Shown here piece by piece: positions 3,166-43,853 of a stretch of DNA of 64,000 nt (position 1 is its first letter; each line of letters opens with the position of its first letter). Under the pieces are notes generated by a model. The model worked only from the letters and a program-made list of their open reading frames with translations. It did not search any database and was not told the origin of the DNA. The position numbers and the translations under genes are program-made. Source of the stretch: Scatophagus argus (lineage: Eukaryota; Chordata; Actinopteri; Scatophagidae); contig NC_058493.1 in NCBI RefSeq assembly GCF_020382885.2, positions 29,686,067-29,750,066 on the forward strand, written 5' to 3'.

Positions 3166-3299
3166 GTTGATGCTCCGCGGGGGGAGCTGGGGATCAGAGC
3201 AGAGGGTGGAGGAACAGGACACCGCGACAGGCTGGCTCAAAGACCAGGTCCATGATCCCGACCAAACAGCGACGGACTGCTGGAGAGACGACAAGTTAA

Positions 3300-7975: not shown

Positions 7976-8890
7976 GAGACTTAGACTTAACTTACATTAT
8001 TGTCATTCAGCAGATCCATCAGTGATGCACCTATTGAATGAAATGTTGTTACATTGCTCACAGAAAGTCAGGCATTAAGTAATCTCTGTACAAAAAAATA
8101 AATATAAGAGTAATAATAATTAATTGTGGGGAAAAAAATAATTGTGGGGGAAAAAGTAAATAGAAGATAGTAAATATATAAAGTATTGTGAGAACAAAGT
8201 GACACTGGTAAAATAAAAGGTACACAAAGTAAAAAATAAAGTGACCAGAGAATAAAGTGATGTGTGGCATCGAGATAGCATTCAAGTACCACATGTTACA
8301 TGTCCCAGAGTGGTGGGGGTGGGGGCTCTGATACAGTCCACAGAAGAGGGTCCTGTGTTATTGTGTGTGGGTGTTCAGCAGCCTAATGGCTAGGAGGAAG
8401 AAGCTGTTCCTGAATCTGGATGTTCTGCTGCAGAACCTCCTACCAGAGGGCGCATTGAAAACAGTCCATGGTGAGGGTGGTGGGGTCAGAGGAAATGTGT
8501 TGGGCTCTGGTCAGCACTTGAGCCCAATGTCTCGGATAGAGGGGAGCGGGGTCCTGATGAGTTTCTCCGCTGTCCTGGTGTTGCCCAGGTCTTGAAAAAG
8601 ACCATGGATTCGCTGATCTTGGGAGCGTTTTGCAGCCTTGATGGAATGGCTCAAGTTGGATCTTGCTTCTCTGAGAGCCCAAGTATCGCCAGATCTAAAG
8701 GCTGCATCACACCCCCTCAGTGCTGGTCGTACCTCCCTAGTCATCCATGGTTTATCGTTGGCCCTGGTTACAACAGTTTTTGTAACAGAGACGTCTTCTG
8801 CACATAAGAGTGGTTGCAAGTCAGTCAACTGATCACCTACACATGAAAAGCCTGTTTGAAGTGTTTAAGTCTGGTTTGAGAGACCATCAC
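7976..8890 (-). mobile_element. Rex1-like LINE fragment nested in the L2 element
   Basis: The minus strand encodes the linker between endonuclease and RT that is typical of Rex1-like elements (NDKPWMTREVRPALRG, then RSGDTWALREARSNLSHSIK), but 3' terminal sequence is joined directly to it, so RT is internally deleted. At the low-coordinate end a gacttagactta run looks like the element's repeated 3' tail. Insertion here explains why the surrounding L2 loses its RT. Confidence 0.7.
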
Positions 8891-15260: not shown

Positions 15261-16034
15261 TGTCTTCATACACTGAGAATCATCATTAAAATCTGTGCAC
15301 ACTCCTTTGATATGCATTCTGTTTCCTCACACAACAAGTCCACTTTAAACAAAGTGTTTAAACTCCTGAAGCCTTAAATGAATCATTAGAGTTCATCTCT
15401 CCTGACGTGTTCCAGCACAAAGCAAACTAATCAATAATAAGAAGTCAATGCAAAGATGAGGACAGACACAAATTCATCTCTACATTACTAACCTGTGAAT
15501 TACATGCAACTGTATGTGCAATAGTGAACAATTTAATCTTGTCAGGCAACTTCCTGCTCTTACCATTTGCTATGCAAATACAAGTAAGATGCAGCACTCT
15601 TCTTCTTTTTAGTATATCATTTGTATTCCTGTGTAACATTTGTATTTACATTTGTATATTTTGGATAACTTATATTTTGTAATTTGCAATTCCGTTGTGC
15701 CTACAGCATGTCTGTTGTTGTTGTCTGGAGCCACTTATCCTCTGGGAGGGAGCTCAGAGTTCACTTTTAAATTTTTGGGATTAAAAAGTGAATTTATCTT
15801 CACTGTCACTTATCAGCCTGAATCACAGGTTTAACTGACGTCACTCACCTGGTGTCACCTGCTGGCTTAAGGCAATGGGGTAGACTCGCACAGATACACA
15901 CACACTGTCTCACACACACACACACACACAGAGCAGGATCGGACTGTTTAACTATGAATGGACTAAATATCACCCCCTGTAATCAGACAGCAGTTACTGC
16001 AGCCAGGCCTGTTTGACTAAAGAACAGCTTCTTT
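15261..16034. other. Intergenic; no gene seen
   Basis: AT-rich DNA with short (AC)n runs near 15895-15930. No open frame with recognisable protein features. Confidence 0.5.
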
Positions 16035-16042
16035 CCCTAGAA

Positions 16043-17202
16043 CAGGGGTGGCCAACCCGCGGCTCCCGAGCCTCATGCGGCTCTTTAACTAGTTTCATGC
16101 GGCTCTTCAGGAGCTTTCACATGACATGCGTCAAATATGCTTGGCTGGCGTTGCCATTTATTCCCCCTACGGCTAGATGGCACGCTGACCAGGTAAGCCT
16201 GTTTGAGTGACGTGAAACGCGCGACGAGAATCTTTGGCGCAACATCATTTGCGTTGTAAACAATTTCCGTCAAGTTGGTCGACATGCTGTGTCACTTGGA
16301 CAGACTGAACCTGACCCTGCAGGGTAAGTTAAAAATGCTGCCTGACCTGGTGCAAAGTGTGTTTGCGTTTGTCAACAAACTAAAGCTGTTCGAGGCGCAT
16401 ATTCAAAAGGGAGATTTAACGCATTTTCATACTATGCTAAAAGCCAGTGAGCAAGTCACCAGCACCGCCCTGAAAAAGAAAAGAGACAGATATGCAACAC
16501 TGGTTGCAAACCTACACGAAAGCTTTGTGACCCGGTTCTGTGATCTACAACTGAAAAGACCACAGATTACGTTCCTCGTTGACCCATTTAATGCGGAGAC
16601 AGACTGTTTGAAAGCCCCGCTCGTCACAGATGCGGCTTCGGCTGAGTTGGAGATGATCGATCTTTTTGAGGAAGATCAACTGAAAGCTGTTTTAAGGGAA
16701 GGGACCATCGAGTTCTGGAAAAGTGTGCCAATGAAAAAATACCCCAACATCAAACGGGCTGCGCTTAAGATACTGTCAATGTTTGGGTCAACGTACGTCT
16801 GCGAGTCTGTGTTTTCTACCCTGAAACACGTGAAATCAAAGCATCGATCTGTTCTGACTGACACTCATTTGAAAGAATTGCTTCGAGTGGCAACAACAGA
16901 ATACAAGCCAGATTTGAAGAGGATTGTTCAAGATAAGGACTTGCTTGAACTGAGTGTTTGTGTGTGTGAGACAGTGCACACAATGTTAACTGTTGAAAAT
17001 AACTAATATTATCATGTTGGTGTGGTTATTTTAATTAAATCTGGCTGAGCAGAGGTCTGTGTGTGCGTGCCTGTGCCTGCATACATGATTAAGGAATGGG
17101 ATGATGTTCATGTGTTCATGTTGCCCATGTGTATGATGTGGCTCGTTGCAGTAACGCAGAAAAAAAAGTGGCTCTTAGTCTCTGACTAGTTGGCCACCCC
17201 TG
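16043..17202 (+). mobile_element. hAT transposon, internally deleted, perfect 8-bp target-site duplications
   Basis: The element begins CAGGGGTGGCCAACCCGCGG and ends GTTGGCCACCCCTG, forming matching inverted ends. It is flanked on both sides by CCCTAGAA (16035-16042 and 17203-17210), the 8-bp duplication expected of hAT elements. Internally it keeps one open frame for the C-terminal part of a hAT transposase but lacks the N-terminal zinc finger and most of the catalytic core. The ends fit the Charlie/Ac-like fish group. Confidence 0.93.
16284..17006 (+). pseudogene. hAT transposase C-terminal fragment
   Basis: An uninterrupted frame of about 240 codons inside the hAT element. Near its C-terminus is the hAT dimerisation region (FWKSVPMKKYPNIKRAALKI, then FGSTYVCESVFSTLKHVKSK, then HLKELLRVATT), as in GTF2IRD2/SCAND3-like transposase relatives. 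The first ATG at 16284 follows directly on non-coding element sequence. The N-terminal DNA-binding and first catalytic parts are absent, so it cannot be a complete transposase. The lack of stops in the remainder suggests recent arrival. Confidence 0.85.
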
Positions 17203-17210
17203 CCCTAGAA

Positions 17211-20483: not shown

Positions 20484-22054
20484 ATGGCCTTCCTCTGGAT
20501 TGTCTCCTGCCTCGCCTTTGTCAGCGCCACCTATGGTGAGATGCACACACAATGTTTAAATGAAAGTTTTCAAACTTTGGGTGTTTTCTGAATTCTAACT
20601 GTAGTCAAAGCACCAACGTGAAGTTTGAGTTTTGAGCAGAATCATCCTTTAAAGTCTGTTACCTGTCATCCTCTCAGGGTGTGGAACCCCTGCCATCCCT
20701 CCACAGGTCAGTGGCTACGCCCGCATTGTCAATGGTGAGGAGGCAGTGCCTCACTCATGGCCCTGGCAGGTGTCTCTGCAGGTGAGTCAGCTGACCACAA
20801 CACAAAATGTTGCTCTTCTTCTTCTTCTTTTTCTTCTTCTTGTGCTGTTCATTGACTGACTTCAGTTTGTTTTGCTCTCAGCAATCCAACGGCTTTCACT
20901 TCTGTGGTGGATCACTGATCAACGAGAACTGGGTGGTGACTGCTGCTCACTGCAACGTCAGGTCAGTTCAGCCCCCGTTAGGTCTTGCTGAAGACGTGTT
21001 AGGAGACACGAGTATCTAGATGTTGAATTAAGATTTAGATGATCACCTCTGTACAACTGTGTTAATTTACAGTTAAGCTGAGTAATGTTTGATGAACAAT
21101 ATCATGTTTCTCTGTGGGATATGAGCGAATTGGCCCTCTAAAGCCCTCCTTCCTGTTTCCTGTCAGGACTTACCACCGTGTGATTGCAGGAGAACATGAC
21201 AAGGGTTATGGCTCCAATGAGGACATCCAGCTGCTGAAACCCGCTAAGGTAAGAACCGCCCATCAGCCAGTCAGCTTTCAGAACACACCATTCCCCCCCA
21301 GCTAACTCCTCCTCCTCCTCCTCAGGTGTTCACTCACCCCCAGTGGAACCCCCGTACCATCAACAATGACATCGCCCTCATTAAGCTGGCCACCCCTGCC
21401 CGCTTGGGCACCAACGTGTCCCCCGTCTGCCTCGCCGAGTCCAGCGATGTATTCAGTGCTGGTATGACCTGCGTCACCTCTGGCTGGGGTCTGACCCGCT
21501 ATAACGGTGAGACTGCTTTTATTGTCTAGAACTATTTACTTGAGACTCTGGGTTCAGGTCAGACTACTTTTACTCTGAAGAGGGAGGAGAAAGTATGTTT
21601 GAGTGTTCTGTGTTGCCTCCCACAGCTCCCAATACTCCCAACAAGCTGCAGCAGGCAGCTCTGCCACTGCTGTCCAACGAGCAGTGCAAGAGACACTGGG
21701 GCAGCAACATCTCCAATGTGATGATCTGTGCTGGAGGAGCTGGAGCCACCTCCTGCATGGTGAGGTCCCACCTCTCTCATCTGTCTCACCTTCCATCACA
21801 GTGTCACTTTGCTGGACTGTTTTCACTGATTTAGTTTATCAGACATCTTCATCATGAATTTATTCATTTATTGTTTGTTTTTTTTTTCACAGGGTGATTC
21901 TGGCGGTCCTCTGGTCTGTGAGAAGGACAACGCCTGGACTCTGGTCGGTATTGTGTCCTGGGGAAGCAGCCGCTGCTCCACCTCCACCCCAGCCGTCTAT
22001 GCCCGTGTCACTGAGCTCCGTGACTGGGTGGACCAGATTCTTGCCGCCAACTGA
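20484..22054 (+). CDS. ctrb: Chymotrypsinogen B-type (copy A), 264 aa, seven exons
   Basis: Pancreatic serine-protease zymogen of the trypsin/S1 family. It is secreted and activated by trypsin cleavage after an Arg before IVNG. Exons: 20484-20535, 20678-20781, 20882-20961, 21167-21248, 21326-21506, 21626-21759 and 21893-22054. All have GT-AG introns and consistent phases, giving 264 residues (chymotrypsinogen B is usually 263). Visible: an 18-residue signal peptide; propeptide C19 to R33 with C19 available to pair with the catalytic domain; activation site R33-I34; catalytic H75 (TAAHC), D121 (NNDIAL) and S214 (GDSGGP). S1-pocket residues are Thr208 (chymotrypsin 189, usually Ser) and Ala245 (226). 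Ala226 is the known mark of chymotrypsin B; Asp189 of trypsin is absent. A polyA signal follows at 22150. It heads a same-strand cluster with two more copies downstream. Confidence 0.95.
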
Positions 22055-23819: not shown

Positions 23820-26800
23820 TATGCCACTTAGGAAAAACTTACTTTTAGAAAACAGAAACATCAGAACAGAGAGAGGGGAGAGAGTTTTGGTATTGGAGAG
23901 TATTAGAATGACAATGACAGTATTAATAATAATGATTTTGATAGCAGTAATAATAAGAACATAGAAATATAACAGGCGGTAATAACAGTCATCAGTGTCA
24001 AGCAGGACCACAGCAGGAAGTCCAACCATGATCCACGGAATCCTGAGAGATGAGCACAAGCACAAGGACTCCAGGGAAGAAGCTGAGTTAGTAACCTGTA
24101 TTAATGGGACATAAATGTGTGCAGAAGGAAAGTTAAGTCAAGTCAAGTCAAGTCAACTTTATTTGTATAGCCCATTTTTACAAGTAGTTTGTCTCAAAGG
24201 GCTTAACATAACATCAGCAACATCCTCTGCCCTTCGACCCTCACATCAACTAAGGAAAAACTCCCAGAAAAACCTTTAACAGGAAAAAATGGAAGAAACC
24301 TCAGGGTGAGCAACAGAGGAGGGATCCCTCACCCAGGACGGGCAGACGTGCAATGGATGTTGTACAGGCAGGAAAACAGTTAACAACATGAGAACAACAT
24401 TACTAAAAAGACAAGTAAAACAAAATCTCAACTGTTTAGTTTCACTTTTTGCTACCACCTCAATATGATTTTAACATTTCACAAGACTGAAATTATAATA
24501 ATGAAATTATAATGAACTGCTGTAACATTCATGTATTTTTTATGTGCTGTTGAAAATCAAGATCCTATCAGTTCAATTTCGACCCGTAGGGAGAACCACC
24601 CCGCCGATAGTTGGTGCACGGAAGAATGACAGGCAGATGTCAACAGTAGACATTGGGTTGGTCATAGAGCTGCAGTTCAACATGAAGATCTGGATGGAGA
24701 GATACCTGCAGAAAGATACAGAGAGAGAGAGAGAGAAAGGGAGGGAGAGACACAAGACTACGAGGAGGACTGGACACACAGTTAGTGACAGAAAATAATG
24801 AACTGCATGTTAATCTGACGAGGGGAGAGGATAGAAGAGCAGAAGGAGGAGGGGAAACTGCTTGGTGGATCATGTTTGTGTCCCCCGGCAGCATAGGCCT
24901 ATAGCAGCTTAGCTATGATAGAGATTTAAAGATTAACAGTTAGTCAGACCTATTCTACCTGTGGCTATATAGCATGAGGTGAGTGTAACTATGCCTACCA
25001 GCCCTACACACTTTATTTGGTGCTAACTATATGCTTTACTAAACAGAAAGGTTTTAAGTTTAGTCTTAAAAGTGGGTTAGAGGATCAGAGAGAAGCTCAG
25101 TGCATCATGGGAGATCTCCTGCAGTCTAAGACCATAGCAGCATAACTGGGGCCATCCTAAGCCAGCCCTAACTATAAGCTTTATCAAAAAGGAAGGTTTT
25201 AAGTCTACTCTTAAATGTAGAGAGGGTGTCTGTGTCTGTTGAAACCGGATGATGCATGCATGCATGCAATGAACCTAGTGAGTAAAACATATAAAGTTTA
25301 GCTGTTATTGTACAGTGTGATGGCATGTGGCAGGAAAGATTTCCTGTATCTGTCCCTTCGACAGCGGAGCTGTAGCAGCCTGTGAGAGAAGGTGCTCCGC
25401 TGTCAGAATCAGAATCAGAATCGTCTTTATTGCCATGTAAGTGAAGAGGTTTCATATTACTAGGAATTTGTCTTGGTGATTGGTGTATACATAGAACGCA
25501 AGAACGAGTGACATATAATAGTAGAATAAAATAAAATAAAAAACTGAACTGAAAACTGAAACTGTTCTTGTGGCATAAGGTTTTGGTCCGAATGTCCAGG
25601 GTGAGAAGGGTCAGCTGTGATCTGACCTGCACGCCTCAGAGTCCTGGAGATGTACAGGTTTCTGGGAGATGGAAGGCTGCAGCCAATCACCTTCTCAGCA
25701 GAGAGCACTGCATGCTGCAGTCTGATGCTTGTTCCTGGCGGTGGCCCCAGCGTACCACACGGTGATGGAGGAGGTGAGGATGGACTCAATGATGGCCGTG
25801 TAGAACTGAACCATCATCTTGACTGGCACCTTGAGTTTCCAAGGTTCTGTCTACTGTGTGATGGAGGAGGTGCTGTTCATTGTCCATGATGGATAACAGT
25901 TTGTTCAGCGATCTCCTCTCCACCACGGTCTCAAAAGACTTCAGCCTGAGACTGAGCACAGAGCCAGCCTTCTTGATGATCTTATCAAGTCTGTTAGCGT
26001 CGCTGGCTCTGATGCTGAAGCTCCAACACACAACAGCAGAGAAAATGGCAACAACAGACTGGTAGAAGATCCCCAACATCTTGCTGCACTCCCAGGTATC
26101 TGTAGTCCTCCACCTCCTCCACCACCTCCCCCCGATCTGTAGTGGCCGTGAAGGCGTCTTCTTCCTCCTGAAGTCGATCACCATCTCTTTGGTCTTTTGA
26201 CATCAAGTCTCAGGTGATTCTGTTCAGACCACTCTGCAAAGTTGTCCACCAGTTCCCTGTACTCGTCCTCCTCTCCCTCTCTAATATGTTATGTCTTTAA
26301 TGCATGTCTGAAGTTTGGTCAGCTGAATGACTTCATCTGGTTTCATCAATAAATATAATTGTGTGTCATCTGCATAACAGTGAAAGTGTTTTGAGTGTTT
26401 CCTAATAATATCACCAATGGGGAGCAAAGGGTGAATAGTATTGGTCTGAGCACAGAACCTTGGGGGAGTCTGTGATTAACCTTAGTGTATAAAGAGGATT
26501 CATTCTGATTGCGATCTGATAAATAAGACTGAAACCAGCTTAATGCACTCCTTTTAATGCCAATTAAGTGTTCCAGTCTGTCCAATAAAATATTATGGTC
26601 AACAGTATCTAATGCAGCACCGAGGTCTAACAATACAAGTACAGAGACAAAAGGCAAGTAAAAGATCATTTATGACTTTGACCAATGCTGTCTGTGTGCT
26701 ATGATGAGCTCTAAAACCAGACTGGAAATCCTCAAATAAACTATTACTATGTAGAAAGTCACATGGCTGATTGGTGGCTGTTTCCTCAAGGATCTTGGAG

Positions 26801-27935
26801 AGAAATGGAAGGTTAGATATTGGGCTAAGGAGAGGTTTGACTACAGCTACTTTAAAGGACTGCGGTATAGTCTGTTATTAGGGACAGATTAATCACATCT
26901 AATAGACAGGTACTAAGTAAGGTTAAAACTTCTATGAGCAGCTTAGTTGGGATGGGGTCTAAGAGGAATGTTGTTGGTTTAGATGAAAATATGAATGAAT
27001 TTAGCTGATGAAGGTCAATGGGAGAAAAGCAGTCAAGATAATTATCTGGTTGTACTGCTGTTTTTAAGGCTCCAGTGTTTGAAGGTAGATCAGTACCAGG
27101 TGAGGTCTGCAGATGTTGAATTTTGGCTCTAATTAAAATCTTGTCATTAAAAAGGGTCATAAAGTCACTGCTGCTGAAGGTTACAGAGATACAAGACTTG
27201 ATAGCATTATGGCTCTCTGTCAGCCTGGCTACAGTGCTGAACAATAGAGTTGAGTATTGTTCTGTATGAGCTTGCAGCACTGGACACAGTGATGTCCATT
27301 TTAGAGGAGTTTTAGTTAGCATGACTCTTCCTTTGTATTGGAGTGTTCGGTTACACTGAGATGTGATACTGAAGTAAGTGCAGATGGTATCACCTCCATA
27401 AATGTTGCCACAGTGCTGTCAGATAGTGTAGGATTTTTTCCCAGTGGCTTGTAATTGTAATTGTAACTGTGGAGGTGTTGGTGTTAATCTTTTATTAGAA
27501 ATGTATGTATAACTCCTCTTTTTGTATGTGATTTAATTAATTTAGGTGGTCAGGGGACAGGGGACACACACAGTCTCTATGGGATTTTGGGTGGGTAACT
27601 GTGCTAATGGGAGTGCAGAGAGGCATGTAGGACTGCAACTCTGCCTCCTGGTCTCAACCAGATATGAGAGCTGCTTCATCCAAAGTGGGATGAATGTCGT
27701 CTCTCCTAATGAGGCCAGGTCTTCCCCAGAAGGTCTGCCAATTATCTACAAAGCCCACATCATTTGATGGACACCACCTCGACAGCCAGCAATTGAATGA
27801 TGACATGCGGCTATACATGTCATCACGAGAAAACTACGGAGTCTGACACAGTCTTTGCTAATGTTCATACCGATTGAATTTTAATTTTAGTGACCTCCCA
27901 CTGTCGCAGCTGGGTGTCATTACCGCTGACAACTC
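23820..27935 (-). mobile_element. L2-clade LINE in reverse orientation, split by a Rex1-like insertion
   Basis: Read on minus from 27935: ORF1 remnants equivalent to those at 5850-6070 (homologous DNA around the AATGACACCC and ACTCCGTAG blocks); the endonuclease-RT linker near 27320-26850 (STVARLTESHNAIKSCISV, PIPTKLLIEVLTLLSTCLLD); RT palm segments at 26669-26346 (LDLGAALDTVDHNILLDRLE, LPQGSVLRPILF). A Rex1-like element occupies about 25400-26265. The RT C-terminus (FKSRLKTFLFDKAYS) follows at about 25210-25165, then the 3' UTR to about 23820, with a (gacttgactt)n-type repeat at 24136-24160. It contains several frame breaks and a gap in RT, so it is dead. Confidence 0.8.
25400..26265 (-). 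mobile_element. Rex1-like LINE 3' portion nested in the L2 element
   Basis: The 3' end is at about 25403, where plus reads cagaatcagaatcagaatcg followed by tctttattgccatgtaag, the reverse of a (gattct)n tail. RT C-terminal coding follows (MVIDFRRKKTPSRPLQIGG, NRLDKIIKKAGSVLSLRLKS). It is homologous to the plus-strand copy ending at about 51200. Confidence 0.8.
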
Positions 27936-28535
27936 GCAACTCTCTTCTGTCCAGCATCTCCCACAAGTCCCTCTCACACCTCCAACTAGCTCAGAACGTA
28001 GCAGCTCCGCTCCTCACTGGTTTTAACAGACGACACCACATCACCCCCATCGTAGTCTCCCTCCACTGCCTGCCAGTCCATTTTAGAATTGATTTTAAGA
28101 TTTTACTGATCACTTTTTAAGCACTTCTGGGTCTGGCTCCAAGTTATATGGCAGAGTTGCTGACCCCCAATGAGCCAGCCCGAAGCCTGAGATCCTCGGG
28201 TGGGGACCTTCTGGTCGTTCCAAAGTCGAGGTTAAAGACTAAAGGTGACCGGACTTTTGCTGTCAGAAACTCTCGGCTTTGGAACGACCTTGCCGACCTT
28301 CTCTTTTATGTGATGTTGTCTTTTTACTGTCCCCTTAAACTTATTGGTTTTAAATTGTATATTTTCTTTTTTTATTTGAATTTTAAACCTTCTGCACTGT
28401 TTGTCTATTTATATTTTGTTTATTTATTGTCTTCTATTTTTATACAACTTGCTAGTTTTTTTAAATGATTTTTAAGCACTTTGAAAACCTGGTTTTTGTA
28501 AGTTGCTATATAAATAAAGTTATTATTATTTATTA
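27936..28535 (+). mobile_element. L2-type LINE 3' end inside duplicated unit 1
   Basis: The RT C-terminus is readable in pieces (SLLSSISHKSLSHLQLAQN, GFNRRHHITPI, then ARSLRSSGGDLLVVPKSRL and FAVRNSRLWNDLADLL). It is followed by an AT-rich 3' UTR ending in tgctatataaataaagttat. Its 5' side is cut off abruptly at 27936, whereas in unit 2 the same element continues upstream. Confidence 0.8.
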
Positions 28536-28905
28536 TGATATTATCACATTGTTCTGTTTCATGTAATAATTCAGTGATCACATTATTCTCATATTATTCA
28601 GTTGTGTGTAAAACTGTTTTCTATTTACTTAAGGAACATTTGAAATGTGGTTCAAACTAAATCAGACATAACAAGACACCTGAGGACGTCATCCTGGACT
28701 GTGGAACAATGAGAAGGATATTTTTGATTATTTTGTCACAAAGACCCTTCAGGCTTAGTGAAAGTAAGTCCTTAACTTTCCGACCTCTGCTAGACTTTAA
28801 AATAAAAAATGAGTTTGACCAGCCGAGTTTTCTGGATAAAGTGGAGTCACTCACTCGTCTCTAACCTTCATGTTCCTCCTCAGGTGGAAAACTCTCTGTC
28901 AGCGC

Positions 28906-28924
28906 CACCTGTCCAAACTCCCAC
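28906..28924 (+). promoter_or_regulatory. PTF1-like site of chymotrypsinogen copy B
   Basis: An E-box CACCTG (28906-28911) is followed after seven bases by TCCCAC (28919-28924). PTF1, the acinar transcription complex, binds an E-box paired with a TTCCCA-like box about one helical turn away, so this is a plausible but imperfect match about 70 bases upstream of the TATA box. The same motif occurs at 33489-33507. Confidence 0.35.
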
Positions 28925-28979
28925 TGTCTCTGATAAGATGTCCCCTCCTGCGTCGTCCAATCACATCACTCCCTGGTTG

Positions 28980-28986
28980 TATAAAG
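28980..28986 (+). promoter_or_regulatory. TATA box of chymotrypsinogen copy B
   Basis: TATAAAG lies 42 bases before the ATG at 29022, with a CCAAT at about 28957. It implies a very short 5' UTR of about 10-15 bases, typical of pancreatic zymogen genes. Confidence 0.75.
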
Positions 28987-29021
28987 GGCTGTGGTTCAGA
29001 CAGACCCGACATGATCGAGCC

Positions 29022-29668
29022 ATGGCCTTCCTGTGGATCCTCTCCTGCCTCGCCTTTGCCGGCGCCGCCTACGGTGAGACCAACTCTTCCACATCAGAGT
29101 AACAGCTGAGGGAGTGAAGCATGCTGGGTGGAGAAGAGAACAGCGCGACAGCTGCAAATTGCTTCTTAACAGTCTGATTCACGCACTGATAGTATATTGA
29201 AAAACCAGCAGAGGGCACTGTGGCTTCAGTCAGGAACAGTAAACACCCCATTTCCCAGGTTTCACACCTTTTGAAAGATTTATTCTGTTTTCCGTATTGA
29301 GTTCACGATAAGTGGATAAGTTTGTATTTCTGCATCAAGATCTCAGGACAGACTTTCAGTTAACTGCATATGAGGAGCCACTGAATTAAAACAGTACATG
29401 CGGTACATTTTAGCAGAGATTCTTCACTGATTGTGTCACATCTGAATACACACAGTTGTACACAACAATATGAAGAAAACTTGCTGCAGGCTCAGGACAA
29501 AGAGCTGAACATCCACACATGCGCTTTGTGACTGTTAATGATGTCTTCATGATGTCACCAGGTTGCGGTGTTCCTGCCATCCCTCCTGTCATCACTGGTT
29601 ACTCTCGTATTGTGAATGGCGAGGAGGCGGTGCCTCACTCCTGGCCCTGGCAGGTGTCCCTGCAGGTA

Positions 29669-29709
<41 letters not shown>

Positions 29710-31036
29710 ACACGTGTTGTGTTAATAAACATGTCGTCTCTCTCCTGTTGTTTTAGGATTACACCGGCTTCCACTTCTGCGGCGGCTCTCTCATCAACGA
29801 GAACTGGGTGGTGACAGCCGCTCACTGCAATGTCCAGTAAACACCTTCACCCTGTTACCTTCTTCCCCTCATGCACACACTAGCAAATCAAGAACACCCT
29901 GCCCCCTCCCTTTCTGAGGAGATTTGTTTTGGACACAAAATAGCTGCCTCATGTTTCTGCCCTTTCCTCCACAGGACGTCCCACCGTGTGGTCCTTGGAG
30001 AACACGACCGCTCCTCTAATGCTGAGAACATCCAGGTCATGAAAGTTGGCAAGGTGGGCGACAAACAATGTCACTTTCTCATCTTACCACTCTGTCTTCC
30101 TGCGTGTTTGCCAGTTATAACCATGTCATTTCCTGTCAGGTGTTCAAGCACCCTCGCTACAACGGCTTCACCATCAACAATGACATCCTGCTCATCAAGC
30201 TGGCCAGCCCTGCCCAGATGAACACGCGTGTTTCCCCGGTGTGTGTGGCTGAGACCGGAGACAACTTCCCCGGAGGCATGAAGTGTGTGACCAGCGGCTG
30301 GGGCCTGACCCGTTACAATGGTGAGAGCACAACAAATGGGCCAGTGAGAGGACCAGGCCTCAGGATGTCCGACACTCAATCAACCAAACTAACTAAGTTG
30401 TCTCCCTCGAGTCACCCGTGTTCAAGTGAACCCAGGACACACCAGTGTTTCCCCCCTGAGCTTTGTTAGGGGTCACAAGAAGATCAGCACAAAGCAGACA
30501 TGTTGGGACTGTGTGTCAAACCAGTCTTGGGCATTTTAAGAGAGGAGGCATGAAATAGTTGAAGAAGCGGGGTTCGATATCCAGACGTACAGCTCACACC
30601 GTGTATTACCATCAGTGTTTATCAGTGCTGTGTTTGTGTGCTGCAGCTGCTGACACCCCTGCCCTGCTGCAGCAGGCCGCCCTCCCCTTACTCACCAATG
30701 ACCAGTGCCGTCAATACTGGGGCAACAAGATCACTGACCTGATGATCTGTGCTGGAGCCTCCGGAGCCTCCTCCTGCATGGTGGGTGGTGCAGATGTGTA
30801 GCAGGTGTCAGAGTGTTCATCCTGACGTCCTGTTGCTGGTTCTCCTTATGTGTGCTTATTTGTTGTCTTTTCAGGGTGACTCTGGTGGTCCTCTGGTCTG
30901 TCAAAAGGCTGGAGCCTGGACTCTGGTTGGCATCGTTTCCTGGGGCAGTGGAACCTGCTCTCCCTCCATGCCCGGTGTGTACGCCCGCGTCACCGAGCTG
31001 CGCGCCTGGATGGATCAGACCATCGCTGCCAACTGA
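29022..31036 (+). CDS. ctrb: Chymotrypsinogen A-type pocket (copy B), 263 aa, seven exons
   Basis: Secreted pancreatic chymotrypsin zymogen. Exons: 29022-29073, 29562-29665, 29757-29836, 29975-30053, 30140-30320, 30647-30780 and 30875-31036. All are GT-AG with consistent phases and together give 263 residues, the usual family length. Signal peptide residues 1-18; propeptide C19-R33; activation at R33-I34 (YSR-IVNG); catalytic H75, D120 and S213. The S1 pocket has Ser207 (chymotrypsin 189) and Gly244 (226), the classic open chymotrypsin A pocket, unlike copy A. Exon 4 is one codon shorter than in copy A. The start at 29022 (gagccATGg) lies just after the TATA box; the open frame continues upstream of it, but that part precedes the promoter. 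The exon 2 donor is followed almost at once by a (CA)n tract. It encodes the same protein as copy C. Confidence 0.95.
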
Positions 31037-31077
31037 GCATGTCAGAGCAGACGGCTTTTAATTTGAAACTGATCATC

Positions 31078-31083
31078 AATAAA
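31078..31083 (+). promoter_or_regulatory. Polyadenylation signal of chymotrypsinogen copy B
   Basis: AATAAA lies 42 bases after the stop codon, giving a very short 3' UTR. It is conserved in copy C at 35661. Confidence 0.75.
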
Positions 31084-31234
31084 AACAGGAGCAGCAAAAC
31101 AGAGTCTCTGTCATTTTTTCATGTTGTGATCTAATGTTTGTTCATGCCAAATATGAAGAATCAAATCCTCTGTTTCCCTCTGAGAGTGAGGCTTTCTGAT
31201 GTAAACAGCCTGAGCTGTGTGCTCAGTGGACAGC

Positions 31235-32007
31235 ATCAACATGTTTCCTGTCTGTATTAGCAGCAGCAGCAGATGTCACGAGGGTTGTGTAATTGTGCAG
31301 TTGCATATTCTCTTATGTGTTGTGGAATGGATCGGGAATGAACCTTCACTTTCTGACTTCAACCAACCATTTATTTAGATAACAACAGATCTTACAGTTA
31401 ATTTCACCTTATTAAGCTCTGCAGAAAGCAGAAAACACAGACAAATAATAATTTAGCTAACTTTTGGTTATAAAGCTACACCACAGGGATTTCTCATGTA
31501 GTCAAAATGAAGCCAGCAAAGTCATGAAAGTGCGCTGAAGAGATATCAACACGACAGGATTTTATTTGGAAGGTGTCTTCTACATACCACATGCAGAAAT
31601 AAACAACTGAGTTTAAACTAGTATTATGTAGAAAGTCACATAGCTGATTAACAACTGCTTTCTCAGGGACTGTAGAGAGAAATGGAAGATTAGATTTTGG
31701 TCTATAATTGCACAAAACCTCACGATCAAGAGTAAGCTTTTAAAGGAGAAGTTTGACTATAGCTAATTTAAAGGATGCCTTCTTCAGCTACACTATATAG
31801 ACAAAGGTATTGGGACAGCTGCCCATCACACCAACAGGGACTTTAATGACGTCTCATTGTAAACACACAGACAGCTTTGCAGCTCTAACAGCTTCCACTC
31901 TTCTGTGAAGGCTTTCCACAACATGTTGGAGTGTTTCTGTGGGAATTTGTGCCCATTCATGCAGTAGAACATTTGTGAGGTCACACACTGATGTTGGACC
32001 AAAAGGC
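31235..32007. other. Unique spacer between the duplicated units, with L2 and Tc1 scraps
   Basis: Not shared with the flanks of unit 1. It contains a minus-strand L2 RT scrap at about 31715-31494 (NYRPKSNLPFLSTVPEKAVV) and a Tc1-like remnant starting near 31793. 31235-31490 has no recognisable feature. Confidence 0.6.
31793..32007 (-). mobile_element. Tc1-like transposon remnant
   Basis: Begins cactatatagacaaaggtat, a close match to a fish Tc1-like terminal sequence. The minus strand encodes a transposase C-terminal fragment (NGHKFPQKHSNMLWKAFTEE). The other end is missing; it is interrupted at about 32008 by the plus-strand L2 element. Confidence 0.6.
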
Positions 32008-33118
32008 CTGGCTCACAATCTCCGTTCCAACCCACATCACCTGTGGTGTGCCGCAGGACTCAATTTTAGGTCCCATTTTATTCTCTATTAATATGCTCCC
32101 ACTCTGCTAAATTATTCAGAGGCATGATGTCTCTTTTCACTGCTATGCAGACGACACACAGTTATGCCTTCTCTTGAGACCCAATGACCCATGAAGCCTA
32201 GCTGTCGCCACCAACTGTCTCAGTGATGTAAACTGTTGGATGGCCCAAAACCTTCTTCAACTCAACAATTCAAGAACAGGAATCATGCTGTTTATCCCCC
32301 CACATCTCCAGACATCAATCAACCTCAGTTCTCTGTCCACCAGTTCAAAACTCACTGCCAGAAACCTGTGTTGTACTTGACTCAAACCTCAGCTTTGACC
32401 CCCAAGTCAAAAATATTGTCCAGTCTTGCTTCATTCATCATGCGTATGATCTCAAGATTCAAACCACTCAGTCTGACCTCGAAAAGGTGATCACACCTTT
32501 TCTCCAGGTTAGAGTATTGCAACTCTCTTCTGTCCAGCATCTCCCACAAGTCCCTCTCACACCTCCAACTAGCTCAGAGCGTAGCAGCTCCGCTCCTCAC
32601 TGGTTTTAACAGACGACACCACATCACCCCCATCGTAGTCTCCCTCCACTGCCTGCCAGTCCATTTTAGAATTGATTTTAAGATTTTACTGATCACTTTT
32701 TAAGCACTTCTGGGTCTGGCTCCAAGTTATATGGCAGAGTTGCTGACCCCCAATGAGCCAGCCCGAAGCCTGAGATCCTCGGGTGGGGACCTTCTGGTCG
32801 TTCCAAAGTCGAGGTTAAAGACTAAAGGTGACCGGACTTTTGCTGTCAGAAACTCTCGGCTTTGGAACGACCTTGCCGACCTTCTCTTTTATGTGATGTT
32901 GTCTTTTTACTGTCCCCTTAAACTTATTGGTTTTAAATTGTATATTTTCTTTTTTTATTTGAATTTTAAACCTTCTGCACTGTTTGTCTATTTATATTTT
33001 GTTTATTTATTGTCTTCTATTTTTATACAACTTGCTAGTTTTTTTAAATGATTTTTAAGCACTTTGAAAACCTGGTTTTTGTAAGTTGCTATATAAATAA
33101 AGTTATTATTATTTATTA
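32008..33118 (+). mobile_element. L2-type LINE, RT to 3' end, overlapping the start of duplicated unit 2
   Basis: Decayed RT is readable: ITCGVPQDSILGPILFSINM, then the catalytic CYADDTQLC near 32140-32170, then the C-terminus and 3' UTR identical to those in unit 1. The element runs without a break across 32518/32519, so this is the native context of the unit's left part. Multiple stops make it non-functional. Confidence 0.82.
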
Positions 33119-33562
33119 TGATATTATCACATTGTTCTGTTTCATGTAATAATTCAGTGATCACATTATTCTCATATTATTCAGTTGTGTGTAAAACTGT
33201 TTTCTATTTACTTAAGGAACATTTGAAATGTGGTTCAAACTAAATCAGACATAACAAGACACCTGAGGACGTCATCCTGGACTGTGGAACAATGAGAAGG
33301 ATATTTTTGATTATTTTGTCACAAAGACCCTTCAGGCTTAGTGAAAGTAAGTCCTTAACTTTCCGACCTCTGCTAGACTTTAAAATAAAAAATGAGTTTG
33401 ACCAGCCGAGTTTTCTGGATAAAGTGGAGTCACTCACTCGTCTCTAACCTTCATGTTCCTCCTCAGGTGGAAAACTCTCTGTCAGCGCCACCTGTCCAAA
33501 CTCCCACTGTCTCTGATAAGATGTCCCCTCCTGCGTCGTCCAATCACATCACTCCCTGGTTG

Positions 33563-33569
33563 TATAAAG
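33563..33569 (+). promoter_or_regulatory. TATA box of chymotrypsinogen copy C
   Basis: TATAAAG lies 42 bases before the ATG at 33605, in sequence identical to that of copy B; the PTF1-like motif recurs at 33489-33507. Confidence 0.75.
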
Positions 33570-33604
33570 GGCTGTGGTTCAGACAGACCCGACATGATCG
33601 AGCC

Positions 33605-34251
33605 ATGGCCTTCCTGTGGATCCTCTCCTGCCTCGCCTTTGCCGGCGCCGCCTACGGTGAGACCAACTCTTCCACATCAGAGTAACAGCTGAGGGAGTGA
33701 AGCATGCTGGGTGGAGAAGAGAACAGCGCGACAGCTGCAAATTGCTTCTTAACAGTCTGATTCACGCACTGATAGTATATTGAAAAACCAGCAGAGGGCA
33801 CTGTGGCTTCAGTCAGGAACAGTAAACACCCCATTTCCCAGGTTTCACACCTTTTGAAAGATTTATTCTGTTTTCCGTATTGAGTTCACGATAAGTGGAT
33901 AAGTTTGTATTTCTGCATCAAGATCTCAGGACAGACTTTCAGTTAACTGCATATGAGGAGCCACTGAATTAAAACAGTACATGCGGTACATTTTAGCAGA
34001 GATTCTTCACTGATTGTGTCACATCTGAATACACACAGTTGTACACAACAATATGAAGAAAACTTGCTGCAGGCTCAGGACAAAGAGCTGAACATCCACA
34101 CATGCGCTTTGTGACTGTTAATGATGTCTTCATGATGTCACCAGGTTGCGGTGTTCCTGCCATCCCTCCTGTCATCACTGGTTACTCTCGTATTGTGAAT
34201 GGCGAGGAGGCGGTGCCTCACTCCTGGCCCTGGCAGGTGTCCCTGCAGGTA

Positions 34252-34292
<41 letters not shown>

Positions 34293-35619
34293 ACACGTGT
34301 TGTGTTAATAAACATGTCGTCTCTCTCCTGTTGTTTTAGGATTACACCGGCTTCCACTTCTGCGGCGGCTCTCTCATCAACGAGAACTGGGTGGTGACAG
34401 CCGCTCACTGCAATGTCCAGTAAACACCTTCACCCTGTTACCTTCTTCCCCTCATGCACACACTAGCAAATCAAGAACACCCTGCCCCCTCCCTTTCTGA
34501 GGAGATTTGTTTTGGACACAAAATAGCTGCCTCATGTTTCTGCCCTTTCCTCCACAGGACGTCCCACCGTGTGGTCCTTGGAGAACACGACCGCTCCTCT
34601 AATGCTGAGAACATCCAGGTCATGAAAGTTGGCAAGGTGGGCGACAAACAATGTCACTTTCTCATCTTACCACTCTGTCTTCCTGCGTGTTTGCCAGTTA
34701 TAACCATGTCATTTCCTGTCAGGTGTTCAAGCACCCTCGCTACAACGGCTTCACCATCAACAATGACATCCTGCTCATCAAGCTGGCCAGCCCTGCCCAG
34801 ATGAACACGCGTGTTTCCCCGGTGTGTGTGGCTGAGACCGGAGACAACTTCCCCGGAGGCATGAAGTGTGTGACCAGCGGCTGGGGCCTGACCCGTTACA
34901 ATGGTGAGAGCACAACAAATGGGCCAGTGAGAGGACCAGGCCTCAGGATGTCCGACACTCAATCAACCAAACTAACTAAGTTGTCTCCCTCGAGTCACCC
35001 GTGTTCAAGTGAACCCAGGACACACCAGTGTTTCCCCCCTGAGCTTTGTTAGGGGTCACAAGAAGATCAGCACAAAGCAGACATGTTGGGACTGTGTGTC
35101 AAACCAGTCTTGGGCATTTTAAGAGAGGAGGCATGAAATAGTTGAAGAAGCGGGGTTCGATATCCAGACGTACAGCTCACACCGTGTATTACCATCAGTG
35201 TTTATCAGTGCTGTGTTTGTGTGCTGCAGCTGCTGACACCCCTGCCCTGCTGCAGCAGGCCGCCCTCCCCTTACTCACCAATGACCAGTGCCGTCAATAC
35301 TGGGGCAACAAGATCACTGACCTGATGATCTGTGCTGGAGCCTCCGGAGCCTCCTCCTGCATGGTGGGTGGTGCAGATGTGTAGCAGGTGTCAGAGTGTT
35401 CATCCTGACGTCCTGTTGCTGGTTCTCCTTATGTGTGCTTATTTGTTGTCTTTTCAGGGTGACTCTGGTGGTCCTCTGGTCTGTCAAAAGGCTGGAGCCT
35501 GGACTCTGGTTGGCATCGTTTCCTGGGGCAGTGGAACCTGCTCTCCCTCCATGCCCGGTGTGTACGCCCGCGTCACCGAGCTGCGCGCCTGGATGGATCA
35601 GACCATCGCTGCCAACTGA
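33605..35619 (+). CDS. ctrb: Chymotrypsinogen A-type pocket (copy C), 263 aa, seven exons
   Basis: Twin of the gene at 29022-31036 and predicted to encode the identical protein. Exons: 33605-33656, 34145-34248, 34340-34419, 34558-34636, 34723-34903, 35230-35363 and 35458-35619. Same signal peptide, activation site (R33-I34), catalytic H75/D120/S213, and Ser189/Gly226-type pocket. The upstream region matches the twin for more than 1 kb, so both copies should share the same acinar promoter and dosage may be doubled. Intron lengths, including the (CA)n tract after exon 2, are equal to those of the twin. If the duplication is real it is very young or homogenised by gene conversion; an assembly artefact cannot be excluded from sequence alone. 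The next gene downstream is agrp on the opposite strand, so the two converge. Confidence 0.93.
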
Positions 35620-35660
35620 GCATGTCAGAGCAGACGGCTTTTAATTTGAAACTGATCATC

Positions 35661-35666
35661 AATAAA
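35661..35666 (+). promoter_or_regulatory. Polyadenylation signal of chymotrypsinogen copy C
   Basis: AATAAA lies 42 bases after the stop codon, as in copy B. Confidence 0.75.
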
Positions 35667-35817
35667 AACAGGAGCAGCAAAACAGAGTCTCTGTCATTTG
35701 TTCATGTTGTGCTCTAATGTTTGTTCATGCCAAATATGAAGAATCAAATCCTCTGTTTCCCTCTGAGAGTGAGGCTTTCTGATGTAAACAGCCTGAGCTG
35801 TGTGCTCAGTAGACAGC

Positions 35818-36115
35818 TGGAGTCACTCTGTGTTAGCCTAGGTAAGACACTATGACATCATCAAGGTTCACAAAGAGCAACATCTGGCCAGGTTGCACGT
35901 GTGTGTGTGACTTCCCCACGTCCTTAGAACTACACAAAGCTGATTTGTTGTGCTTTTGTTCAAAGGACCACATGGACACCAGCAGGGGTTTATTTGGTAT
36001 CCAGTCCAAAAGAAAAACAGTTTTATGACACATCACTGTTGAACACATTTCTCTGTCAATTTTAATTACACAGAACACATTAAACAGACATCTGAACATA
36101 CGTGTTCCTCAACAG
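35818..36115. other. Convergent intergenic region between ctrb copy C and agrp
   Basis: About 300 bases with no recognisable coding or repeat signal, bounded by the 3' ends of two genes facing each other. Confidence 0.6.
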
Positions 36116-36139
36116 TCATTTATTACACAAAGAGCACAT

Positions 36140-36145
36140 TTTATT
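36140..36145 (-). promoter_or_regulatory. Polyadenylation signal of agrp
   Basis: Plus TTTATT is AATAAA on minus, about 100 bases after the agrp stop codon. A second AATAAA on minus is at about 36118-36123. Confidence 0.6.
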
Positions 36146-36243
36146 CAGCAAGTAACAGAGAGAGCATAAACATGTTTTCTGTCTGCATGTGTTCCCATCA
36201 TGAGATGCATGCATGAGATGCAGGTGCTTCGTCAAGTGTGTTG

Positions 36244-37117
36244 TCAGGTGCGTCTTGGTGGGCAGGTGTGACCAACCCGGCGGCAGTAGCAGATAGCGTT
36301 GAAGAAGCGGCAGTAGCAGGTGTCACAGGGGTCACAGCAGGGCAGCGGGTAACCCAAACACGACTGTTGGTGGGGGATGCAGCGACGAGGTGAACGCATG
36401 GCTCGACCCTGCAGCTGCAAGGCTGCTGATGAGTCCTGGAAAACAGGAAGGATGTGTTTCATAACGGGAGACAGATCAATTACATGCAGTCAACTTAAAA
36501 TACATTAACAGAACTAGAAGAAAGAGACTTTTTATAGTAAAACTACACTGTGTCTTTAAATAAGCCACACCCACCTCATCAAAGGTCCCTGCATCCATCA
36601 GGAAGTGGTCCTCCACTGAGTCGACTGGTAGGAGGGCTGACTCATGAACGAGGTCAGGGGTCTGGCTCCTCTCTGCAGGACAAAGACAGAAACTTACTGT
36701 TAGCTGTCGTCCAGCTTCATTTCTCTATCAGTATGTTGTATTCCTGAGGAAACTGCAGCTGCATGAGATCACATGTTGGTTTGTCCATTCTGTGCTGCTG
36801 AAGAAACATGGTTGACTCTGACTTCTTCCCTCATCCTAAGATCTAATATTAGATTCCATCTCTGCCCATAAATCCTACACACGGGACCTTTAAGAAATGA
36901 TTGTGATCTTTTCAGCTGTGCCCTGATGAGTCAGGTGACAGGTGTAGTGGGGTCTCAGATTCGACAGGAGTTACTAACCCATGTCAGTTAGGTATGAGTT
37001 TTCGGGGCGGCGGCCAGTGGCAGGACCTTCATCCAACTGAATATTTCCATGAACCAGAGAAGAAGAGAGATGCAGCAAACTGAAGGACCAACAGCAGAGC
37101 AGCACAGAGCCAAACAT
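36244..37117 (-). CDS. agrp: Agouti-related peptide, 142 aa, three coding exons
   Basis: Secreted hypothalamic neuropeptide, an antagonist or inverse agonist at melanocortin receptors MC3R/MC4R that promotes feeding. Coding exons on minus: 37117-36979, 36672-36575 and 36435-36244; phases 1 and 0 fit, giving 142 residues. Residues 1 to about 24 are a hydrophobic signal peptide. The middle is acidic and variable. A convertase site RAMR (90-93) precedes the C-terminal domain. That domain has ten cysteines (98, 105, 112, 113, 116, 119, 121, 128, 130, 137) in the agouti knot pattern, and the receptor-binding RFF is at 122-124. The RFFNAICYCR stretch and the absence of a long Lys/Arg-rich basic region favour AgRP over ASIP. 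A noncoding first exon probably lies at about 37990-38015, as in mammals. The gene converges with the chymotrypsinogen cluster, and the divergent neighbour is vps13c. Confidence 0.95.
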
Positions 37118-41801: not shown

Positions 41802-43853
41802 AAGTGCATCTGGAAACTATTCACACCACTTCGCTTTTTCCACATTTTATGTTACAGTCTCATTCCAAAATGGATTAAATTCATTTTTTCCCCTCAAAAG
41901 TCTACACAAAATAGCCCATAATGACAAAGTGAAACAGGTTTGCTTGAATTTCTTGCAAATTTATTAAAAAAAAATATATATATATATATAACATGTACAT
42001 TTATATATAACATGTACAAGTATGCATACCATGTGATCAATCCTTTTTGAGTATGATCCTATAAGCTTGGCACACTTGTTATTCGGCAGTTTCTCCCACT
42101 CTTCAATGCAGAACCTCTCAAGCTCCATCAGGTTGGATGGGGAGCATCGGTGCATGGCTATTTTCAGATCTCTCCAGACATGCTCAATAGGGTTCAAGTC
42201 TGGCCCACTGAAGGACATTCACAGAGTTGTCCCGAAGTCACTCCTTTGTGATGCTGGCAGTATGCTGAGGGTCGTTGTCCTGTTGAAAGGTAAACCTTCG
42301 CCCCAGTCTGAGGTTCAGTGCCATCTGGGGCAGATTGTCAGCAGGGATGTCTCGATACATTGCTGCAGGCATCTTTCCCTCGACCCTGACTAGTCTCCCA
42401 GTTCCTGCTGCCATAAAACATCCCCACAGCATGATGCTGTCACCACCATGTTTCACAGTAGGAGTGGTATTGAATGGTATATATTATATATAGGTGATCA
42501 GCAGTGCCTGGTTTCCTCCAGACATGACCTTGTAATTTATGCCAAAGAGGTCAATCTTTGTTTCATCAGACCAGAGAGTTTTGTTTCTTGTCTGAGAGTC
42601 CTTCAGGTGCCCAGATGGGCTTTCATATGCATTTTACTGAGGAGTGGCTTTCCTCTGGCCACTCTACCATACAGGCCTGATTGGTGAGGTGCTGCAGAAA
42701 TGATTGTCCTTCTTGAAGGTTCTCCCCTCTCCACAAAGCAACGCTGGAGCTCTGTCAAAGTGACCATTGGGTTTTTGGTCACCTCCCTGACTAAGGCCCT
42801 TCTACCCCGATCACTCAGTTTAGTTGGGCAGCCAGCTCCAGGAAGAGTCCTGGTGGTTCCAAACTTCTTCCACTTATGGATTATGGAAGCCACTGTTCTC
42901 TTTGAGACCTTTAATGCAGCAGAAGTCTTTCTGTACTCTTCCCCAGATCCCCTCCACACAACCCTGTCTCTGTGATCAACAGACAATTCCTTTGACTTCA
43001 TGGCTTGGTTTGTGCTCTGACATGCACTGCCAACTGTGAGGGCTTATATAGACAGGTGTGTGCTGTTCCAAATCGTGCCCAATCACGCCTCAGGCAGGAG
43101 GCTGCGAAGCATTAAGAGCAGGACCACCAGACTGAGGAACAGCTTCTTCCTAGAAGCTGTGAGACTGTTGAATTCTGGAGGCCCTCTGTAGCCCCTGCTG
43201 CTCATCCTTACATGAGTAAGGATTATTACACACACATCACTCTCCCTCTCTGACAACCACCCATGAACATTGCACAATGCAGCCATTTTGCACAGACCTA
43301 TGCACTACTTGTCTCATTTGCACAATTCTGCAATACTGCTGTAAATATTGTTGCCATCTGGTCCCTGTTGACTGGTTATATCTTGTTATTCTGGTTGTTT
43401 CTATATTTATATAGTGTTGTTCTTATGTTTATAGCATTAGTATTTGTAGGTTATTGGGCTTATACTGGGACCAGGGAAACTAATTTCGTTCCACCTCATG
43501 TTTCTACATGTGTGAAATGACAATAAAGCTCCTTGAATCCTTGAATTTACCACAGGTGGACTCAACTCAAGTTGTAGAAACCTCTGAAGGATGATCCATG
43601 GAAACAGGATGCACCTGAGCTCAATTTTGAGTGTCATGGCAAAGGGTGTGAATACTTATGCACGTTATATTTTTTGTTTTTCATTTTTAACAAATTTTTT
43701 AAAATTTAAGCAAACTTGTTTCACTTTGTCATTATGGGGTATTTTGTGTAAAATTTTGAGGGAGAAATTTAATTTAATTCATTTTGGCATGAGACTGTAA
43801 CATAACAATATGTGGAAAAAGTGAAGGGATGTGAATACTTTCCGGATGCTCTG
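41802..43853 (-). mobile_element. Tc1-like transposon with TA target duplications and a nested LINE end
   Basis: Ends aagtgcatctggaaactatt and actttccggatgctctg are inverted and lie between TA dinucleotides (41800-41801, 43854-43855). Long terminal inverted regions share a cattccaaaatggattaaat block. The minus strand carries transposase pieces: a helix-turn-helix N-terminus near 43001-42603 ([40 protein letters not shown]), the middle at 42456-42238 ([22 protein letters not shown]) and the C-terminus at 42218-42050 (DLNPIEHVWRDLK). Frames are broken. A LINE 3' end at 43086-43544 is inserted close to the right terminal repeat. Confidence 0.9.
43086..43544 (+). mobile_element. Rex1-like LINE 3' end nested in the Tc1-like element
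   Basis: The nested segment replaces a few bases of the Tc1 arm, judged against the copy at 62084-63397 (which continues cccaatc..aactgaatttaccac there on the opposite strand). It contains ggaacagcttcttcctagaa, typical of Rex1-like C-termini, and ends tgacaataaagctccttgaa with a ccttgaat tail. Confidence 0.78.

Follow-up and report, generated by a model that had tools for sequence, protein, structure and literature searches.

In humans, the chymotrypsinogen genes CTRB1 and CTRB2 are arranged as an inverted pair with a polymorphic inversion. The two are highly similar paralogs, to which most exome reads could not be mapped uniquely, as outlined in PMC11018521. Copy-number change of ctrl in fishes is already published: Anoplarchus purpurescens carries two ctrl copies versus one in Cebidichthys violaceus, according to the outline in PMC10657299. 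For human segmental duplications in general, interlocus gene conversion has been inferred from multiple alignments of many duplications, as summarized in PMC3790853.

Here, we describe a pair of chymotrypsinogen genes in Scatophagus argus, located in a 64-kb window (the whole stretch of DNA analysed; Table 1). The two genes are intact and identical, the differences between the units that carry them are clustered at the unit ends, a dispersed repeat runs unbroken over the left end of unit 2, and a diverged remnant lies beside unit 1. Most likely, the pair is a real and older local duplication, the core of which was recently homogenised. Among the papers listed in literature searches, as judged by titles and the beginnings of abstracts, there was no publication on this pair.

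Two direct units with identical chymotrypsinogen genes

The window belongs to a contig of 29,849,514 bp (C1), with both units ~0.13 Mb from the contig end. The original prediction had described two units at a constant offset of 4583, four mismatches between them, a mismatch-free core of ~3.1 kb, an intronic (CA)n tract of equal length and a complete chymotrypsinogen gene in each, all of which was borne out. The units align without gaps over 3,299 bp with 99.88% identity, the match breaking off abruptly at both ends, and the four mismatches are at 27996/32579 (A/G), 31117/35700 (T/G), 31129/35712 (A/C) and 31228/35811 (G/A), leaving a longest identical run of 3,120 bp. The intronic (AC) tract has the same length in both units, and each gene comprises seven exons. 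If a segmental duplication is understood as a match of at least 1 kb and at least 90% identity on the same chromosome that is not wholly a dispersed repeat, the unit pair is one.

The best protein match of the predicted product is bovine chymotrypsinogen A (residues 1-245, E = 1.7e-115), and Pfam Trypsin (PF00089) covers product residues 34-256 (E = 2.2e-73). The product shows CGVPAIPP...R/IVNG, which we take to be the activation peptide, and the motifs TAAHC, NNDI and GDSGGP, which are presumably catalytic. In the alignment to bovine chymotrypsinogen A, the specificity position, for which we assume the number 189, is occupied by serine (SSCMGDSGGP), where trypsin has aspartate. Within the chymotrypsinogens, the genes appear to be of the ctrl/ctrb type; the agouti-domain neighbour of unit 2 can be compared with human CTRL and AGRP, which presumably share a chromosome region. 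The difference at 27996 lies ~1 kb upstream of the ATG, and those at 31117, 31129 and 31228 are at least 34 bp downstream of the AATAAA signal. Because all four fall outside them, the predicted transcripts of the two genes should be identical.

A 1.5-kb core query (29000-30500) yielded two full-length matches with 100% identity in the genome, and the 12 further matches among those listed were all partial, with 70-86% identity. Chymotrypsin/trypsin-like exons elsewhere, again among the matches listed, are scattered on many contigs with lower identity. The window contains a third, diverged chymotrypsinogen-like gene (paralog A), for which a stretch including the last exon matches Pfam Trypsin. 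The window also holds a rhodopsin-family receptor open reading frame (ORF) on the minus strand (2410-3324; PF00001, E = 1.6e-41) and an inverted repeat pair, ~93% identical and ~20 kb apart (42340-43085 and 62410-62985), of which the former copy contains Tc3/Sleeping-Beauty-type transposase domains.

Table 1. Features of the chymotrypsinogen locus (positions are those of the window, except in the first line)
Feature	Position	Strand	Remarks
Studied stretch	C1:29686067-29750066		Basis: 570.7-Mb assembly, 48 contigs
Paralog A, third chymotrypsinogen-like gene, diverged	20484..22054	+	Exon ends read from sequence, model partial
Other old repeat	27461..27931	-	Ends 4 bp left of unit 1; strand inferred from ORFs
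Unit 1	27936..31234	+	3,299 bp; 4 mismatches to unit 2, gapless
Right part of the dispersed repeat in unit 1	27936..28367	+	Cut at 27936; only query 470-901 matches there
TATAAA, unit 1 (same in unit 2)	28980..28985	+	42 bp upstream of ATG
Chymotrypsinogen gene, unit 1	29022..31036	+	GT-AG introns, 263-aa open product
Exons of the unit 1 gene	29022-29073, 29562-29665, 29757-29836, 29975-30053, 30140-30320, 30647-30780, 30875-31036	+	
Intronic (AC)21 tract	29672..29713 (unit 1), 34255-34296 (unit 2)	+	42 bp each
AATAAA polyadenylation signal, unit 1 (same in unit 2)	31078..31083	+	
Diverged counterpart of 36166-36188, left over from the right flank of copy 1	31235..31257	.	20/23 identical
Remaining unshared spacer (left flank of unit 2)	31258..32518	.	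Fragments of repeats, and sequence for which no further match was among those listed (40 of 305 candidates scored)
Dispersed LINE-like repeat	32050..32950	+	Uninterrupted over the left end of unit 2
Unit 2	32519..35817	+	3,299 bp
Chymotrypsinogen gene, unit 2	33605..35619	+	Coding sequence identical to unit 1 gene
348-bp segment to the right of unit 2, absent at unit 1	35818..36165	.	GACAGC precedes, GAGAGC at its end
Agouti-domain ORF (agouti-related gene), right neighbour of unit 2	36244..36489	-	PF05039 Agouti, E = 1e-12

Unit boundaries and the probable form of the original duplication

The left end of unit 2 is located within a dispersed repeat with at least 73 matching pieces (the best 40 of 277 candidates were scored), labelled LINE-like from motifs that we take to be of that kind; Pfam returned no family for six repeat-derived pieces (four and two). 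Counting on both strands, 25 of the 28 repeat loci compared align across 32518/32519 and extend 20 bp or more to either side; L033, L034 and L036 are the exceptions. Because these loci continue across the junction, whereas unit 1 retains the right portion of the repeat alone, the unbroken left flank is that of unit 2, and unit 1 starts at a break within an old repeat. The other old repeat, next to unit 1, comes to an end at 27931; beyond this point, all 14 further copies that were compared continue with a different sequence. The usual continuation, for which one other copy was used and which would have revealed an empty site, is absent from the spacer. In the last 20-30 bases before unit 1, no homology to the left flank of unit 2 was found (best 12/23). 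The left junction of unit 1 carries the motif CAACTC twice (27930-27935 and 27937-27942), with a single base in between, a doubling that resembles an end-joining scar.

On the right side, the remnant beside unit 1 matches the right flank of unit 2 (20/23), a value equalled by none of 20,000 random 23-mers taken from the window and the repeat loci and compared with the same 1-kb flank. For other lengths of the spacer start, 1 (20-mers), 0 (25-mers), 4 (28-mers) and 2 (30-mers) of 20,000 random sequences were as good; the test was anchored on the first spacer bases, and the match had been noticed beforehand. When the whole spacer start was scanned, the remnant match scored 31 versus 34 for the best of 500 shuffles. 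A pattern written to fit both the remnant and 36166-36188 hit only these two places in the genome. Because the remnant matches the flank of unit 2 348 bp further on, the original duplication was longer than the present units, and their right end represents an insertion/deletion boundary rather than the end of the duplication. Given that GACAGC precedes the 348 bp and GAGAGC stands at their end, copy 1 has probably lost this segment by deletion between short repeats; instead, the 348 bp may be an insertion in copy 2.

These boundaries also bear on the 1.3-kb spacer, which had been regarded as unshared and as an argument against a simple head-to-tail event. Most of it is indeed unshared, with the exception of the first 23 bases, which are homologous to 36166-36188. 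The argument itself is weak, because the left-flank counterpart could have been lost from copy 1, and most of the spacer can then be the left flank of copy 2 itself. As judged from the boundary sequences, the best fit would be a head-to-tail duplication of ~4.9 kb, after which copy 1 lost both its left flank and the 348 bp. A larger and older duplication, considered on account of a match between 26737-26827 and 31614-31704 (80-82% over 91-92 bp), was rejected, as the spacer stretch is a many-copy dispersed repeat.

As regards the origin alone, it is conceivable, if on balance doubtful, that unit 1 was copied from unit 2 by template switching or break repair and inserted next to the old repeat, at 27931, instead of being what remains of a head-to-tail duplication. 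The stop of that repeat at 27931 and the absence of its usual continuation from the spacer are in line with such an insertion, but the 23-bp remnant shows that the copy once extended further in the direction of the agouti gene, as expected of a longer duplication. An insertion could be combined with any of the main readings, and its likelihood is not to be added to theirs.

Differences are confined to the unit ends

All four unit differences lie 7-118 bp from a unit end. For four differences placed at random in 3,299 bp, a run of 3,120 bp has a probability of 3.8e-5 by simulation and 4.3e-5 analytically, the longest-run test having been picked after the data had been seen. The frequency of differences was 3/23 in the right-flank remnant (13%, 95% interval 3-34%), 4/179 in the unit ends (2.2%, interval 0.6-5.7%) and 0/3,120 in the core (one-sided 95% bound 0.096%); the argument consists of seven differences, four in the units and three in the remnant, the groupings of which were defined after inspection, and the contrast in divergence between flank remnant and unit ends is weak (Fisher p = 0.03). 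The fall from flank through ends to core would be explained by gene conversion that halted short of the ends of unbroken homology. The hallmark of conversion, a tract of excess identity within more diverged homology, may be represented on the right by the remnant (3/23); on the left side, no such homology was found.

A very young duplication without conversion, with the end differences resulting from error-prone copying near the junctions or from chance, seems improbable to us. The identical core and the equal (AC) tract would fit an age of less than ~48,000 generations, the value that the core bound gives if 1e-8 mutations per site and generation are assumed, and the doubled CAACTC at the left junction is of the kind that end-joining may leave. 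However, the pattern has p ~4e-5 under uniform mutation, and there are already 3 differences among the 23 positions of the flank remnant beside unit 1. Moreover, if unit 1 were the new copy, junction mutations would be expected in unit 1, yet it is unit 1 that has the commoner base at 27996/32579: in 24 repeat loci, this base is A in 19, T in 3 and G in 2. Because the A of unit 1 prevails in these loci, the A/G change probably arose in unit 2, unit 1 keeping the older base. Conversion is favoured over plain youth, because the differences cluster at the ends and the remnant beyond unit 1 is more diverged.

Control pairs in the same assembly

Other similar repeats of the assembly were compared with the twin units. 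An inverted trypsinogen pair on contig C9 (C9:18376971-18378074 and 18383050-18384153; L069:972-2075 and 7051-8154) matches over 1,104 bp with 99.5% identity and five differences, and a third gene between the two copies is ~85% alike. Near these copies, a related 99-bp stretch, 81% alike, lies 85 bp away in one copy and 267 bp away in the other, so that the pair looks like a conversion-like step in a sister family. An assignment of the C9 genes to the chymotrypsinogens was rejected, as their translations carry trypsinogen motifs. Differences more than 150 bp inside the match ends made up 4/5 in the C9 trypsinogens and 6/6 and 5/6 in two hAT-like pairs; L071/L074 and L071/L075 repeat the same six places as L071/L073 and were counted once. 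The control pair L074/L075 (1,343 bp) has two differences, both 3 bp from the ends, and is identical inside, which we regard as neutral. No control repeat of 3 kb with more than 99.5% identity was found in the assembly.

The window itself contains a hAT-like element (16032-17207), with relatives on other contigs that are 97-100% identical in pieces, and two 1.34-kb hAT-like relatives (L074 and L075) lie on contig C16. Because these two are identical inside, the hAT-like family has probably been active recently.

We attach a similarly low probability, as for plain youth, to an assembly artefact, in which either a real second copy had its core overwritten by short-read polishing or repeat collapse, with differences surviving only within roughly one read length of unique sequence, or the second copy is wholly false. 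False duplications are frequent in assemblies, accounting for 4-16% in the case of three earlier vertebrate assemblies and for 0.3-2.3% in those that succeeded them, and their marks include gaps between copies and half read depth, as outlined in PMC9516828. Distances of 7-118 bp between the differences and the unit ends are on the scale of short reads, and polishing of a real repeat could leave such a core. On the other hand, gaps between copies, one of the listed marks, are absent here: there is no N in the whole 64-kb window, and hence none between the two units. An old repeat is cleanly interrupted at the left boundary, and the right one would be a 348-bp deletion with diverged sequence beyond it, both of which speak against an artefact. 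In addition, repeats of 0.8-1.1 kb with ~99.2-99.5% identity in this assembly keep their inner differences, and repeat copies with 97.5% identity over 2,844 bp keep scattered ones, although their divergence is too high for a strict control. With inner differences retained in other similar repeats, there is no obvious reason why a core of the same divergence as the ends should have been merged. We consider a duplicated haplotype less probable, because the window contains no N and the left end of unit 1 breaks a repeat that is continuous at unit 2.

Discussion

Among the three options of the original prediction, gene conversion over the core is the one that we favour, with plain youth and a duplicated haplotype less favoured. 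We estimate at roughly 0.55 the probability that the pair is an older local duplication in which gene conversion between the two copies subsequently homogenised the core. According to this scenario, a pancreatic chymotrypsinogen gene of the ctrl/ctrb type would have been duplicated locally to give two direct copies, starting with a head-to-tail event of ~4.9 kb (roughly 31258-36188), after which copy 1 would have undergone two deletions, with unit 2 presumably being the older place. The copies would then have diverged, copy 1 losing its left flank and the 348 bp just right of the gene, before gene conversion rendered the ~3.1-kb core identical. The conversion tract would have ended 60-120 bp before the limits of uninterrupted homology, and conversion would thus be the cause of the difference pattern.

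If the pair is real, its likely effect is a double dose of one identical zymogen. RNA reads could not separate the copies, because all four differences lie outside the predicted transcript, and copy numbers based on expression or short reads would be misjudged. We offer it as an unlikely generalization that concerted homogenisation recurs in the pancreatic protease clusters of this fish, the C1 chymotrypsinogen twins and the C9 trypsinogen pair both having recently become near-identical, perhaps because a higher dose of one unchanged enzyme is favoured by selection. The chymotrypsinogen pair would also provide a compact case in which to measure how closely gene conversion approaches the limit of homology; otherwise, it is just another pair of similar genes.

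The locus resembles that of Anoplarchus purpurescens in the presence of an extra chymotrypsinogen-like copy, which in Anoplarchus purpurescens belongs to the ctrl locus, where copy number varies among related species according to the outline of that study (PMC10657299). In contrast to the Scatophagus argus pair, the outline of the Anoplarchus purpurescens account comes without sequence identity, unit boundaries or evidence of conversion (PMC10657299). With human CTRB1/CTRB2, as they are summarized in PMC11018521, the pair shares high similarity and the difficulty of mapping; unlike the human genes, the Scatophagus argus copies are direct, 1.3 kb apart and identical in coding sequence. Finally, as in human segmental duplications, nearby duplicates appear to have exchanged sequence, resulting in identity above that expected from their age, but the evidence here consists of seven differences at one pair rather than of multiple alignments of many duplications, as outlined in PMC3790853.
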